Position numbers and translations under genes: made by a program. Shown piece after piece: positions 13,116-18,929 of a DNA stretch of 64,000 bases (position 1 is the first letter of the stretch; each line of letters begins with the position of its first letter). Location of the stretch: positions 1-64,000 of the forward strand of contig JACDNV010000009.1 of NCBI GenBank assembly GCA_017656425.1, given 5' to 3'. Below the pieces are notes generated by a model that made no database searches, was not told where the DNA came from, and saw nothing but the letters and a program-made list of their open reading frames with translations. Source of the stretch: Candidatus Neomarinimicrobiota bacterium (lineage in GTDB: Bacteria > Fidelibacterota > UBA2242 > B5-G15).

Positions 13116-13484
13116 ATGAAGAAGAATCGAGAAATAATACTTGTAGGTGACAAAGTATTAATAGATCCTGATCCAGAAAAAGAGAAATCCCCTGCTGGAT
13201 TATATCTTCCTCCTGGAGTAAAGGAAAAAGAAAAAGTTCAGGGTGGATATGTGGTAAAAACCGGTCCTGGTATTCCAATCCCATATCCTGAAGATATAGA
13301 TGATGAAGAACCATGGGAAGAAGAGCAAAAAGATGAACCAAAGTACATTCCTCTTCAGGCCGAAGAAGGTGATTATGCTATCTTTATCAGAAAATCAGCA
13401 ATAGAAATAGAACTCGATCAAAAAAAGTATTTAATCGTTCCCCACAGTGCGATACTTATTTTAATTAGAGAACAATACGTTTAA
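13116..13484 (+). CDS. Cpn10/GroES-like co-chaperonin with acidic insert, no groEL nearby
   Basis: The 122-residue protein matches the Cpn10 fold: GDKVLIDPDP, then SPAGLYLPPG (mobile-loop region), GGYVVKTGPG, and a C-terminal EEGDYAIFIRKSAIEIELDQKKY then VPHSAILILI. Standard GroES has about 95 residues. The extra length is an acidic/proline insert near residues 63-85 (PEDIDDEEPWEEEQKDEP) replacing the roof loop. No groEL is in the window. It could be a second, specialised co-chaperonin or a divergent family member. No Shine-Dalgarno is evident. It converges on the following - strand gene with only 3 bases between them. Confidence 0.75.
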   Translation: MKKNREIILVGDKVLIDPDPEKEKSPAGLYLPPGVKEKEKVQGGYVVKTGPGIPIPYPEDIDDEEPWEEEQKDEPKYIPLQAEEGDYAIFIRKSAIEIELDQKKYLIVPHSAILILIREQYV

Positions 13485-13487
13485 TAT

Positions 13488-14351
13488 TTAATCAATCCAT
13501 TCTATATTTATGCTTCCCAATCCTATTTCAAGATAAAGCCTGATCTTTTTATTGGACTTTTCCCAGTTATCGCTTCTATAAAACCCATCCTCAAATTCAT
13601 AAAATCCATCAATTGATAGAGATGAAAGAAAAGACCTGTCAGCTTTCACCTCAACAGCATATTCTCTAGGTATTTTCACTGTCATACTACCAAGACCAAC
13701 AGTCAAATAACCTCTGACGCTTTTTTGTGCTAAACCTTTTAAATATACCACAGTATTGCCCATACCACAATCGATCTTAAATTCTTCCGCATTTGAGTTA
13801 AGTAAGTTATAAACAGTCACATCTCCCAATCCTGTGGCAAGCTCAAAATTGTTCATAACCTCTTTATTCAAATCATCAAAAATAACATCGACATCACTAA
13901 GCCCTACATTCAAACTGAGTTCTTTTATTTTCAAGTTCGTAAAATCCATTTTCCCTGAACCAAGACCTATATTTATATTAAAGGTATATTTAATTAAAGT
14001 ACTGAAACTCAAATACCAGTTATTCTTAATTCCCCCTTTCCCGCCAGATCTACTACCTAAAAAACTTTTTTTATCAACTTTTTGTGAACGAATTTTCAAT
14101 TTCCCCTTTGGACCAAGCTGTATGTATTCAACAATTGGTCGATATTCTTTATCCCTATAATTAACATATGCCTTCACAATGTAATTTTTATCATCCATCG
14201 AATACAATTCTATATTCCCTAAGCCAATATCCATATTTACATCTACTAAAGCCTCGCCACTATAGTCTATGTTCTTACGATATTCATATTCCCTTGCATG
14301 GATAATCATCGCTACAAATAAAAATATTGATAAAAGTAACATCTTTCTCAT
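13488..14351 (-). CDS. Exported LiaF/toastrack-like beta protein
   Basis: The 287-residue protein has a signal peptide (MRKMLLLSIFLFVAMIIHA). Repeated strand motifs of the type DIGLGNIEL, NIGLGSGKM, ATGLGDVTVYN, GLGSMTVKIP and EIGLGSINIEW mark a toastrack/LiaF-like right-handed beta structure related to the DUF4097 group. It is the last gene of the sigma/anti-sigma operon, 11 bases after the solenoid gene. It is likely periplasmic, and the function is unknown. The start at 14351 agrees with the signal peptide. Confidence 0.65.
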   Translation of the reverse strand: MRKMLLLSIFLFVAMIIHAREYEYRKNIDYSGEALVDVNMDIGLGNIELYSMDDKNYIVKAYVNYRDKEYRPIVEYIQLGPKGKLKIRSQKVDKKSFLGSRSGGKGGIKNNWYLSFSTLIKYTFNINIGLGSGKMDFTNLKIKELSLNVGLSDVDVIFDDLNKEVMNNFELATGLGDVTVYNLLNSNAEEFKIDCGMGNTVVYLKGLAQKSVRGYLTVGLGSMTVKIPREYAVEVKADRSFLSSLSIDGFYEFEDGFYRSDNWEKSNKKIRLYLEIGLGSINIEWID

Positions 14352-14362
14352 ATCAAACTCGC

Positions 14363-15619
14363 TTAAAATTCTTCTATTATAATGTCGCCACCTGTGGTTT
14401 TCAACTCAATAATATTGCCACCACCATTCAGCAATACCGTCCCTCTCTTTACTACATAATCGCCACTACTTTCAACACTCAAATTTATTGGAAAATCCGA
14501 AATAATACCGCAATCATCTCTATATCTTTTTCTAACCTTTACTTCAGCTTTGATTGTAGCCTTACTATTAGGTTTAATCCTGAAAACAATATTACCTCCT
14601 GATGTTGTAATTTTACCTGATTTAATGCTACTATCCTTATCAGGTAACTTTGAAACTTCAACATCGCCACCAGAGGTCATTGCATCGATACTGCCTTCAC
14701 TATTTTTTACCTGTATATCGCCACCGGATGTATGCAAATACAGATCTCCTGAACTATAATTTACAATAATATCACCACCAGAAGCTATTATCTCCCCATA
14801 ATTATTTACAGTATCAACGTATATATCACCACCGGATGTTCTTAACGTAGCACTTTTCAATCTACCATCTATTTTAATATCACCACCTGAGGTTCTGGCT
14901 TCAATTCTTTTTCCCATACAATACCTAAATTTTATATCACCGCCAGAAGTGGAGGCTCTCACATAACCATTTGCTTTTCTACATATAATATCGCCACCAG
15001 AGGTATGCGAAGATATATCACCATCAATATTCTCAATTTCTATATCTCCACCGCTAGTTGATAACTCAACATCTCCGAAAGAATCTTTAACATATATATC
15101 ACCACCTGAGGTTCTTAAAAATATTTCTCCACCTATCTTCTCTGACTCTATATCTCCACCGCTTGTATTAACATCAATTTCACCATCAAGCATTATAAGG
15201 CTTACATCCGATCCAGCAGCCTTCACCTTAATATTGGAAACCTTTGGTAATTTTAAGATATAGCTTATACTAACTTTTCTTATATTATCACGTCCAGTAA
15301 TCTTTATTGTAGAGCCCTTTTTATCAACAACAGCCTTGTACTTACCAACTAATTCCTGTGCTTTAGCTTCAGATAATGTCAATAAACGTATTCTTTGAAG
15401 TAATATAACTTTGTTATAACCGCCGAGAATATTCAAATCCCCCGTTATATTATCTAAAACTACATTTGGAACATCTATTGTCGGAATACTATCTACATTC
15501 GTAATAATAAAGTATCCATCTTCTTTTTCGACATCCATAACCCCAGCATAGGTAAAAGGATTTATTATTAGAAATAAAAAAGAAATCAGCACAGTTGTAT
15601 ATACAATTTTTTTCATCAC
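14363..15619 (-). CDS. Exported DUF4097-type solenoid with TSGGDI repeats
   Basis: The 418-residue protein has an N-terminal signal segment (KKIVYTTVLISFLFLIINPFTYA). From residue 152 to 343 it carries 11 copies of a TSGGD[IV] unit at a strict spacing of 18 residues, apart from one 19 and a final 24, then a last TTGGDIIIEEF at the C-terminus. This regularity predicts a beta-solenoid with one unit per coil turn. DUF4097 proteins commonly follow ECF sigma/anti-sigma pairs, as here (4-base overlap with the anti-sigma gene). It is probably periplasmic or outer-membrane associated. Its biochemical role is unknown. Confidence 0.8.
   Translation of the reverse strand: MMKKIVYTTVLISFLFLIINPFTYAGVMDVEKEDGYFIITNVDSIPTIDVPNVVLDNITGDLNILGGYNKVILLQRIRLLTLSEAKAQELVGKYKAVVDKKGSTIKITGRDNIRKVSISYILKLPKVSNIKVKAAGSDVSLIMLDGEIDVNTSGGDIESEKIGGEIFLRTSGGDIYVKDSFGDVELSTSGGDIEIENIDGDISSHTSGGDIICRKANGYVRASTSGGDIKFRYCMGKRIEARTSGGDIKIDGRLKSATLRTSGGDIYVDTVNNYGEIIASGGDIIVNYSSGDLYLHTSGGDIQVKNSEGSIDAMTSGGDVEVSKLPDKDSSIKSGKITTSGGNIVFRIKPNSKATIKAEVKVRKRYRDDCGIISDFPINLSVESSGDYVVKRGTVLLNGGGNIIELKTTGGDIIIEEF
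14591..15166 (-). repeat. In-gene 54-base repeat array encoding 18-residue TSGGDI units
   Basis: Units begin at residues 152, 170, 188, 206, 224, 243, 261, 279, 297, 315 and 339 of the solenoid protein. On the + strand it is visible as recurring ATATCACCACC/TATATCGCCACC words. The protein motif is much better conserved than the DNA between motifs, so the array is old and under selection for the protein. Confidence 0.85.
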
Positions 15620-16647
15620 TTTCCCCTTTTCGATGATAGCCTATCCAGCCATGCTTTTGCCTCGCTTCTTAGAGAATCATCTGTCTCTCTGTAAGCGACA
15701 AGAGCAAATATCGGTATAAGTGATTGATCCGCAGTATTCGCTAACACCTCAAAAGCCTCTCTTCTTATCAATACATCAGGATCGTTTAGTAGTACCTTTT
15801 TTAACACCTCTTTCACCTCTTTATCTGAAATATATTTTTTCAAATACCGGAACGCTACATATCTCGGTTCATATTCCTTCTCATTTAAAAGCGAAGATAG
15901 AAAAACTTCTTTATTTTCATAAAACCGATCGGAAAGAACTAGCAACCTTAATGCTCTGGCACGTTTATCGGGATCATTATCGTGAAGAGCAGAGTATCTA
16001 AGCATGTTTAAAATCACAGGATCATCCAGACCTCCAGTTAATCCCATCTCTTTTTTAACCTCAAAATTTATTTGGACAGCTCTGCCTGTACCTGTTCGTT
16101 TTTGCTTCTCTCTCGTAATATCCTTTAATTCTTTAACTTCAAGCTCACTAGAACCAAGGAAATAGCTCGCTACCAGCTTCTTTATATACTCCTTTTCTTC
16201 GATTGACATATCCTTCCTGCCCTCGATTACACTCGCTATAATCTTCGGATCTTCAATAATAGCACTGCTCATCCATAGTTTCCCTATTATTATTCCGAGT
16301 ACAAATGTTACTACAAGTGTACTAAAAGTGTATGCTGGCCTCGAAAAAGGGAAGTAAACTATATCTCTTAATATACTGACCAAATTCTTTTTTTCTCGAA
16401 TCGGAGATGCTTTTTCATCTTCGATCCTTTCCATTATCTTCTTATTTAATCTTTCAAGAATAAGAGGAGAATATTCTGGAATTGAATGTTTATCTATAAA
16501 TTTCTCCATCTGATTATATTCCCTCAAAAAATCCATACAATGTTCACAGTAATGCAAATGATTTTCTATTTCTACTCTTAGATATTCATCATGCTCCCCA
16601 TAGATATACAAAATAAGATCCTCTTTTTTGTACTTTTTGCAACTCAT
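15616..16647 (-). CDS. Anti-sigma factor with zinc finger, one membrane helix and HEAT repeats
   Basis: The 343-residue protein has the ZAS zinc-binding signature H30-x3-C34-x2-C37, typical of cytoplasmic anti-sigma domains. One transmembrane helix follows at about residues 105-130 (FSTLVVTFVLGIIIGKLWM). The extracytoplasmic part (about 210-340) reads as HEAT-type repeats (DPDKRARALRLLVLSD, DPDVLIRREAFEVLAN, DDSLRSEAKAWLDRL). It should bind and hold the ECF sigma encoded just upstream (ATGA overlap) until an envelope signal reaches the HEAT domain. It also overlaps the solenoid gene by 4 bases. Confidence 0.85.
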   Translation of the reverse strand: MSCKKYKKEDLILYIYGEHDEYLRVEIENHLHYCEHCMDFLREYNQMEKFIDKHSIPEYSPLILERLNKKIMERIEDEKASPIREKKNLVSILRDIVYFPFSRPAYTFSTLVVTFVLGIIIGKLWMSSAIIEDPKIIASVIEGRKDMSIEEKEYIKKLVASYFLGSSELEVKELKDITREKQKRTGTGRAVQINFEVKKEMGLTGGLDDPVILNMLRYSALHDNDPDKRARALRLLVLSDRFYENKEVFLSSLLNEKEYEPRYVAFRYLKKYISDKEVKEVLKKVLLNDPDVLIRREAFEVLANTADQSLIPIFALVAYRETDDSLRSEAKAWLDRLSSKRGK

Positions 16648-17213
16648 ATTAGCCCCTCTTTGTAGTAGGGTTTCAAAATGTTTTGAAGCTTTCCTATTGC
16701 CCTGAATAAATATCTCTTAACTGTTCCTTCGCCACAATCCAGTATTTCTGCTATTTCTTTTATTTTCTTACCCTCATAATGCTTCATTATAAAGACCGTT
16801 CTTTGTTGCTTTGACAGCTTACTTAAAGCAACATAAATAATTTCATTGACATTTTGATCTTCTGTTTGCTCATATGATAAAGACGTATTCGCTTGTGCTT
16901 TGTCCCTGGGATTCATATCGTCTATTGGTTCTACATACCCATATCTCTTCTTCATCTTAAATTGGCTAAATGCAATATTTGCCATAATTCTATATAACCA
17001 AGTAAAAAACTCGCTTTCGAACCGAAAACTCTTAATATTTTTATATATTTTCAGGAATGTTTCCTGATATAAATCTTCTGCGTCATTAAAATTTCTGGTA
17101 AAACGCAAAGCCTGATTCATCGCCCTCTCACCATAGCGATTCATTATCTCAGCAAAAGCCATTTTGTCTCCATTTTGAGCTTTTAAAATTAGTTCCCTTT
17201 CAGATTCTTCCAT
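16644..17213 (-). CDS. ECF-type RNA polymerase sigma factor
   Basis: The 189-residue protein has sigma region 2 (about 20-90: RYGERAMNQALRFTRNFNDAEDLYQETFLKIYK with the DAEDLYQ core) and region 4 (about 128-180: LSKQQRTVFIMKHYEGKKIKEIAEIL then EGTVKRYLFRAIGKL). It redirects RNA polymerase to a small regulon, normally including its own operon. First gene of the sigma, anti-sigma, solenoid, toastrack-like operon. AGGA lies a few bases before the ATG. Confidence 0.95.
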   Translation of the reverse strand: MEESERELILKAQNGDKMAFAEIMNRYGERAMNQALRFTRNFNDAEDLYQETFLKIYKNIKSFRFESEFFTWLYRIMANIAFSQFKMKKRYGYVEPIDDMNPRDKAQANTSLSYEQTEDQNVNEIIYVALSKLSKQQRTVFIMKHYEGKKIKEIAEILDCGEGTVKRYLFRAIGKLQNILKPYYKEGLI

Positions 17214-17270: not shown

Positions 17271-18929
17271 TTATCTTTTAAAAAATGTGAACTTGCCACT
17301 TCCGATAACTTTATTATCAATTTTCACCCTATATAAATATATTCCCGCTGGTATATCCAATTCTAAACCAGATAAGTTGTAATAACCCCCTACTGGATAT
17401 ATTTCCTGCTTATTTTCCCAGACAAGTTGACCCAGTATATTATAAATATTTATGCTTAATATGCTTTTATCTATTTTAACGTTGTCAATTTCTACAGCGA
17501 AGTTTATTAATTCCTTAGCTGGATTGGGATACGGGATAATCTCTGATTTGACCTTTGATAAATTATTCAATACCAAAGCTCTTTCTACAGCCTCACTTAT
17601 ATCGGGAATACCCCATCCATAGAGGTTATCAGGAGAAAAAGCTCTATCACCTGAAGACCTCAAAATATTTAGAACATCACATGGCTTTAAATTAGGATTT
17701 GCCTGAAGAATAAGCGCGCAGCCTCCTGCAATCAAAGGAGTAGCTAAAGAAGTTCCACTACCCCAGCCATAAAAGACGCCATCATCTATTGCCCCAAAAG
17801 TATATACACCCATTGCACAGACATCGGGTTTAACCCTCCCATCAAAAGTGGGACCATGGGAGCTAAAATAAGCGATATTGCCCAATGAATCTACTGCTCC
17901 AACCGTTATTGCTCCAAAAGCGTCTCCTGGCGTTAAAATCCCTCCATCCCTATACTTACAAGCCTCATTACCAGCGGCTGTAACAATTATTATGCCTCTC
18001 TTGAAGGCTTCGTTTACTGCGATCGATATAGGAGCTGTTTTACCATCAATAATTTCAAAAGAATAGGTAGTATCATCAAAATCACGATACCCGAGTGAGG
18101 TAGAAATTATATCAGCTCCAAGTGAATCTGCCCATTCTATTGCGAAAATATAATTATCTTCTTCAATGGTCGTTTCTGAACGCACATCTTCTGTCTTAGC
18201 CAGAATAATTTCGGAATCATAACTAGCTCCTATTAAAACACCCGGGACATACCCGGATATCAAGCTTAATACCATCGTTCCGTGCCACTGTTGAGGATAT
18301 TCTCCTGGCTCATCTTCAACTTCTGTGTCTTTGTAAATAAAATCTCTTTCAGCTAATAACAATTCATTATTTATCAATCTGTTGAACGCTTCGTGAGATT
18401 TCATAAATCCCGTATCAAAAAGTGCTATCCTTATTCCTTTCCCAGTTAATCCTCTAGAATGTAGCTGAGGTATATTCAACATTTCAAGCTGCCAGTAGGA
18501 ATAACCATATACATTGGCAGACTTACGAAGTCCAATATTCACTGGAATGTAGCTACCACAAGTACTTTTATATTTTCCGACCGGGATTATTTTTTTAACA
18601 AACGATAGCTTTTGTAATTCACCTATTCTATCTTTATTAATTCTACAGCTAAAAGCACCGAGAAACCTCGAATAACCCTCTATTCTATTAACATATAACT
18701 CGAGCTTATTGTAAATTCTTTTATCTGGATAAAAATCTTTCCATGAGGTTATGTAACCAGCTTTAACATGCCTTATTTCAGCTTTCTCATCATATAAGAC
18801 CTGCTTGCCCAGGAATCTATTCAAACTCTCTTCAGAAATAAAAACCCAGTACTTATCACTGGGAAGCAGCGTACCCTCATAAAAAAGCAGAAAGATAACA
18901 ATAAAAGCTCTTAATTGAAGCCTAATCAC
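17271..18929 (-). CDS. Secreted subtilisin-like (S8) protease with type IX-like sorting domain
   Basis: The 552-residue protein has a signal peptide (about 1-23), an inhibitor-like pro-region (about 25-125) and a peptidase S8 domain with the full triad: D172 (ALFDTGF), H216 (WHGTMV) and S394 (SGTSLATP), plus the oxyanion Asn in TAAGNE. The C-terminal 85 residues form a sorting domain (IPYPNPAKELINF, YNILGQLVWE, IPAGIYLYRVK, GSGKFTFFKR), predicting secretion and cell-surface attachment by a type IX-like system. It overlaps the gene upstream on the same strand by 8 bases. Confidence 0.92.
   Translation of the reverse strand: MIRLQLRAFIVIFLLFYEGTLLPSDKYWVFISEESLNRFLGKQVLYDEKAEIRHVKAGYITSWKDFYPDKRIYNKLELYVNRIEGYSRFLGAFSCRINKDRIGELQKLSFVKKIIPVGKYKSTCGSYIPVNIGLRKSANVYGYSYWQLEMLNIPQLHSRGLTGKGIRIALFDTGFMKSHEAFNRLINNELLLAERDFIYKDTEVEDEPGEYPQQWHGTMVLSLISGYVPGVLIGASYDSEIILAKTEDVRSETTIEEDNYIFAIEWADSLGADIISTSLGYRDFDDTTYSFEIIDGKTAPISIAVNEAFKRGIIIVTAAGNEACKYRDGGILTPGDAFGAITVGAVDSLGNIAYFSSHGPTFDGRVKPDVCAMGVYTFGAIDDGVFYGWGSGTSLATPLIAGGCALILQANPNLKPCDVLNILRSSGDRAFSPDNLYGWGIPDISEAVERALVLNNLSKVKSEIIPYPNPAKELINFAVEIDNVKIDKSILSINIYNILGQLVWENKQEIYPVGGYYNLSGLELDIPAGIYLYRVKIDNKVIGSGKFTFFKR

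Follow-up and report, generated by a model that had tools for sequence, protein, structure and literature searches.

A Toastrack/DUF4097-type β-solenoid protein in a conserved, apparently self-regulated ECF sigma factor operon of Neomarinimicrobiota

The locus and its genes

The window, the whole 64,000-nucleotide stretch of Candidatus Neomarinimicrobiota DNA analysed here, carries on its minus strand four genes in the order ECF sigma factor, anti-sigma factor, solenoid protein and second toastrack-like protein (Table 1). The stop of the sigma gene overlaps the start of the anti-sigma gene by four bases (ATGA) and the anti-sigma and solenoid genes share one base (TGATG), and because of these overlaps the four genes are taken as an operon. 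The solenoid gene probably starts at ATG 15616, one codon after GTG 15619; this ATG forms the overlap with the anti-sigma stop and is accompanied by a GGGG Shine-Dalgarno-like run. The protein has 417 residues from the ATG and 418 from the GTG. Residues are numbered here from the GTG, and the ATG start would lower every number by one. With 21 stops on the plus strand, it is the minus strand that encodes the protein.

Table 1. Features at the solenoid locus, in positions of the window
Feature	Positions	Strand	Basis
Second exported toastrack-like protein (LiaF-like_C / Toast_rack_N)	13488..14351	minus	Pfam, sub-threshold
Toastrack/DUF4097-type beta-solenoid protein	14363..15616	minus	ORF, AlphaFold2, Foldseek, PF13349 homologues
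C-terminal cap (residues 345-418; final degenerate GGD turn at 408)	14366..14587	minus	model DSSP
Eleven TSGGD[IV] coils, residues 152-344	14588..15166	minus	motif positions; spacing kept in orthologues
N-terminal cap, residues 27-133, mixed strands and one helix	15221..15541	minus	model DSSP
Predicted Sec signal peptide (MMKKIVYTTVLISFLFLIINPFTYA-G), without lipobox Cys	15545..15619	minus	sequence; homologues' N-termini
Anti-sigma factor: HxxxCxxC, one transmembrane segment, C-terminal HEAT repeats	15616..16647	minus	HEAT_2 E=9.9e-9
ECF sigma factor	16644..17213	minus	Sigma70_r2, Sigma70_r4_2; sigma70-ECF above cut-off
Predicted ECF-type promoter GACAACCTT...GTCTAA	17240..17268	minus	equivalent sites in relatives; strict-pattern genome search
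Subtilase (S8) with type IX secretion tail	17271..18929	minus	Peptidase_S8 E=4e-40, Por_Secre_tail

Where in the cell would the solenoid protein act? Its residues 1-25 form a signal-peptide-like segment (modelled as a helix at 6-17, with low confidence), and most of its homologues have a hydrophobic N-terminus. Neither the protein nor its relatives carry another membrane domain or a SHOCT domain, and a domain search of the protein found no anchor, sorting domain, lipobox or type IX tail. From these sequence features the protein is probably exported to the periplasm, in agreement with a preliminary description of this DNA that had called it exported.

The sigma factor has Sigma70 regions 2 and 4 only and lies next to a membrane anti-sigma factor with a zinc-finger motif, as in pairs of an ECF sigma and a class I anti-sigma. 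The N-terminus of the anti-sigma is RsrA-like (E=0.001); this zinc-finger-type domain is probably cytoplasmic and the HEAT domain periplasmic, and the sigma factor would be held by its partner and freed on a signal. The second toastrack-like protein scores below the Pfam gathering scores (E=3e-4 to 5e-4). It also begins with a signal-peptide-like segment and is kept beside the solenoid gene in Neomarinimicrobiota. Convergent with it on the plus strand (13116-13484) is a Cpn10/GroES-like protein (PF00166, in two stretches) with an acidic proline-rich insertion. At the other end, the subtilase neighbour is preserved in ten Neomarinimicrobiota-type loci; it probably does not belong to the regulated unit, since it lies upstream of the predicted promoter.

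Repeat and fold of the solenoid protein

The central part of the protein contains eleven [TA]SGG[DN][IV] motifs starting at residues 152, 170, 188, 206, 224, 243, 261, 279, 297, 315 and 339, with successive spacings of 18, 18, 18, 18, 19, 18, 18, 18, 18 and 24. These positions, and the period of 18 with one 19 and one 24, match the preliminary description residue for residue. Ten of the eleven motifs read [TA]SGGD[IV] (ASGGDI at 279, TSGGDV at 315) and one, at 339, TSGGNI; a degenerate zeroth coil (AAGSDV) starts at 134 and a degenerate twelfth motif (TTGGDI) at 408. Shuffling the protein 20,000 times never gave more than one motif (none in 19,975 shuffles, one in 25). At the DNA level the 54-nt units are on average just 50% identical (39-70%), and the ten TSGGD copies are written with eight different codon sets; the repeats are therefore old and selected. 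A recent tandem duplication of DNA was rejected on the same unit identity.

An AlphaFold2 model from a 45-sequence alignment (mean pLDDT 92.3, pTM 0.85) shows a β-solenoid capped at both ends by folded segments, which bears out the solenoid proposed from the repeat alone. An earlier single-sequence model had the solenoid core, but with poor caps and meaningless PDB matches, and was superseded. Regular solenoid spans residues 134-344 of the final model, where strands and turns recur every 18 residues. The register is the same in each coil: Thr ends a strand, Ser-Gly-Gly-Asp makes the turn and [IV]-x-V-x forms the next strand. A looser turn, which as a rule has Gly at position 13, then leads into a second strand that carries [IV]-x-[LV]. 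Within the coil, positions 1-6 hardly vary, hydrophobic residues predominate at 6, 8, 15 and 17, and the other positions are variable. As the period corresponds to one coil per repeat, equivalent residues should stack above each other. In the C-terminal cap, the motifs SDFP and INGGG are conserved among relatives.

Does this fold belong to a known family? Sequence and profile searches of the PDB with the solenoid protein gave no match. The best Foldseek matches of the model in the PDB were 4QRK (E=3.5e-6), 3LYC, 3PET and 4OPW (E=2.7e-4), with probabilities of 0.97-1.0 (0.99-1.0 for 4QRK and 4OPW) and low global TM-scores (0.15-0.28), the latter because the proteins differ in length. These are crystal structures of the Toastrack/DUF2807 type, and 4QRK and 4OPW are the two PDB entries named as Toastrack examples in PMC11237479. 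The solenoid protein alone has no Pfam match, none to PF13349 (DUF4097) even at E<=10, and its NCBIfam match to LiaG is weak (E=8e-6); PF13349 finds nothing in its genome either. Of the 45 aligned homologues, which are 26-45% identical to it, 30 match PF13349 (best 4e-27), and in relatives the genes that occupy the same place in the operon, at orthologous loci, score above the cut-off. By fold and homology the protein is of the Toastrack/DUF4097 kind, in a corner of that family which the Pfam profile misses.

Is the strict spacing peculiar to this protein? Of the 41 genomes searched, ranging from its own taxonomic family up to the phylum, 33 gave a match. Solenoid length and spacing are equal in L003 and L031 (a same-family relative and Neomarinimicrobiota isolate B5_G15), and order-level orthologues are spaced alike, down to the one 19, which follows coil five or six, and the 24 close to the end. 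Neomarinimicrobiota in general preserve the 18-residue coil and its two exceptions, and the motifs are similarly spaced in KSB1, Calditrichota, Latescibacterota and Bacteroidota. Orthologues often have two or three extra coils, and alignment gaps measure 18 or 36 columns; solenoid length thus differs by whole coils, as expected if coils are the structural units. Scanning contigs with the single protein returned no relative, and a scan with alignment A2 found 80 loci on other contigs, where 533 of 762 motif spacings are exactly 18; these loci were picked by a pattern containing TSGGDI/TGGGDI, which biases the motif letters and leaves the spacing between copies unbiased. On a Gemmatimonadetes contig (L052:4608-6795) the 18-residue coil occurs in a different setting: the solenoid gene comes after another gene for an exported DUF4097-like protein, and no sigma gene lies close by. 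Among 34 DUF4097 genes found through the Pfam profile, a lag of 18 is commonest in 19, a few have 19 or 20 and others no clear period. The DUF4097 protein of L111 (G043:C307) has a period of 20 rather than 18, so coil length varies between subfamilies. The preliminary description had named motif loss in orthologues as one outcome that would count against it and had proposed looking for the period in other genomes: the motif is retained and the period recurs. Its remark that DUF4097 proteins are usually less regular is not supported, because the relatives, usually with more coils, and the Pfam-found genes make strict spacing a common trait of the family.

Conservation of the operon and a candidate promoter

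Since repeats of this kind are usual in the family, more interest attaches to the operon, which is conserved and apparently self-regulated. Among the 76 related-solenoid loci with enough flanking sequence, 43 have a homologous sigma gene on the same strand, no more than 1.5 kb upstream. By their contig titles, these sigma-solenoid loci come from Neomarinimicrobiota, KSB1, Calditrichota, Ignavibacteria/Bacteroidota, Latescibacterota, Krumholzibacteria, Acidobacteria and others. The protein encoded between the two genes was scanned in ten cases from about seven phylum-level groups; all ten have HEAT_2 and nine have zf-HC2 at E<=0.001. The remaining 33 of the 76 loci have no such sigma gene alongside, so the solenoid works in other contexts too. 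On an Ignavibacteria contig (L061:6897-8251), open reading frames that by their sequence resemble a second sigma/anti-sigma pair lie 1 kb downstream of the solenoid gene.

ECF promoters carry AAC in the -35 and GTC in the -10 element. A site of this form (GACAACCTTTATTTTAGGTATATGTCTAA) lies within the 57 bases that separate the subtilase and sigma genes. Sites of this form precede 26 of 44 sigma genes, mostly 31-65 bases upstream, and they occur in several phyla; 200 shuffles, which ignore common descent, gave 1.7 on average and never more than 7. The fixed pattern has no match at the other 18 of the 44 loci; L034 and L035 show near matches with ATCTAA. In the 2.8-Mb genome the strict pattern occurs once, at this operon. 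Relaxed patterns match genome-wide only at the rate of a reversed-pattern control, and a wide regulon is thus unsupported. Because the promoter-like site recurs in 26 of the 44 loci and its strict form is found once in the genome, the operon looks self-activating: it is probably switched on by its own sigma factor, of which it would probably be the main or only target.

A possible role at the cell envelope

How could a periplasmic solenoid serve an operon headed by a sigma factor? The explanation that we favour, with about even confidence, is a self-activating envelope-stress operon. The ECF sigma factor would be kept inactive by the membrane-spanning anti-sigma, with its zinc-finger-type domain in the cytoplasm and its HEAT domain in the periplasm. 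Each 18-residue turn of the solenoid would contribute two short strands with inward Ile, Val and Leu, closed along one edge by the TSGGD turn, and the variable positions would form two long flat sheets serving as docking surfaces. Their partners would most likely be envelope-stress ligands and/or the anti-sigma HEAT domain, with which the solenoid is perhaps in contact. Docking could tune the release of sigma, in the way that the DUF4097 domain of LiaX restrains LiaFSR, and the freed sigma factor would fire its own promoter and raise all four proteins.

The main rival is that the solenoid is an effector only, made in the stress response to shield or scaffold the envelope by binding lipids, lipoproteins or peptides, with no part in sensing. 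We consider this quite possible, although we lean against it. With the strict promoter pattern solely at this operon, the operon's own products must be the main output, as the rival would have it, and solenoid relatives do occur without a sigma gene. Translational coupling to the anti-sigma gene and the conservation of the trio across phyla suggest instead a functional link to the anti-sigma.

Could the Thr-Ser-Gly-Gly-Asp turns themselves be the active element? The preliminary description envisaged a rigid rod whose ladder binds ions or sugars, or which polymerises into a fibre or adhesin. In favour of this, the confirmed solenoid places the turn in an identical register in every coil, and the PDB relatives are labelled 'putative adhesins', although these labels are annotation only. 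The Asp of the turn is not invariant. In 29 relatives taken from the whole-protein search, which avoids the bias of the pattern-selected loci, the turn position holds Asp in 270 cases, Ser in 49 and Asn in 29, and across one sub-lineage (L024, L025, L029, L030) Ser replaces Asp in 9-11 coils, which speaks against an ion-binding ladder. With this substitution a metal site would be expected to be lost, whereas a turn-capping, hydrogen-bonding role would persist. Most probably the motif is mainly architectural, Gly-Gly allowing the tight turn and Ser or Asp capping it and hydrogen-bonding between stacked turns. The fibre fares no better, as the model caps both ends and the protein lacks an anchor or sorting domain, lipobox or type IX tail. 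With a regulatory operon context in addition, the rod as a whole is improbable. A sub-membrane scaffold inside the cell, the role proposed where a Toastrack domain is joined to PspC or a LiaF-type transmembrane segment, would follow from the fold membership and the general model of PMC11237479, but is very unlikely for a protein that, like its relatives and the adjacent second toastrack protein, starts with a signal-peptide-like segment, and that has no other membrane domain or SHOCT.

The self-activating envelope-stress operon can be stated in a bolder form, in which the periplasmic Toastrack solenoid senses ligands as the direct partner of the HEAT anti-sigma and the operon represents a widespread, undescribed module of FCB-type and neighbouring phyla whose regulon is the operon itself. 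This form is tentative and on the unlikely side. In the open-access literature no description was found of a HEAT anti-sigma paired with a toastrack/DUF4097 protein (subscription literature lay outside the search).

How does the locus compare with known systems? Toastrack/PF13349 proteins (LiaG, the LiaX C-terminus, Bacillus YvlB) share the predicted fold, as the matches to 4QRK and 4OPW indicate; PF13349 recognises most of the homologues found at this place in the operon, and the protein itself has the weak LiaG match. The protein described here differs in its own lack of a PF13349 match, in being an isolated secreted solenoid unfused to PspC, LiaF-TM or SHOCT, and in having about 11-14 coils of near-exact length. 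The sheets of Toastrack domains have been proposed to assemble signalling complexes beneath the membrane, mainly inside the cell, and an operonically linked sigma factor is mentioned in some of their contexts (PMC11237479). The proposed setting, intracellular and C-terminal to transmembrane or SHOCT segments, is not a strict criterion and is not that of the solenoid protein; the docking idea would fit here, at a different location given the export signals. The DUF2807/GIN-type putative adhesins of Bacteroidota (3LYC, 3PET, 3LJY, 4OPW) share the β-helix fold and export, but are shorter, and the PDB profile search detected no sequence similarity to them. With ECF sigma factors and their class I zinc-binding anti-sigmas, the pair found here shares Sigma70 regions 2 and 4, the N-terminal zinc-finger-type domain, one transmembrane segment and a predicted autoregulated promoter, to which the anti-sigma adds a HEAT-repeat domain predicted to be periplasmic.

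The closest tested parallel is enterococcal LiaX-LiaFSR, where a DUF4097 domain is likewise joined with an envelope-stress regulator that chiefly targets its own gene cluster. LiaFSR is inhibited by the PF13349 domain at the C-terminus of LiaX (PMC10269926), and the liaXYZ cluster is the main LiaFSR target (PMC11601895). LiaX also carries a helical N-terminal domain that binds antimicrobials, and it signals through a histidine kinase; the solenoid protein has no such binding domain and the operon no histidine kinase, whose place is taken by the ECF sigma/anti-sigma pair. As a protein, the solenoid is typical of its family, for which structures have been solved while little is known of function. 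What the locus adds is the context, a conserved trio of sigma factor, HEAT anti-sigma and solenoid with a matching predicted promoter in uncultured and little-studied phyla. This context suggests for exported DUF4097 proteins a specific role that can be tested, and it is relevant to the question of which side of the membrane Toastrack domains work on. If the bolder form were true, the ligand-sensing module would be the counterpart of LiaX-LiaFSR in bacteria with an outer membrane, and Toastrack domains would be functional outside the cytoplasm.
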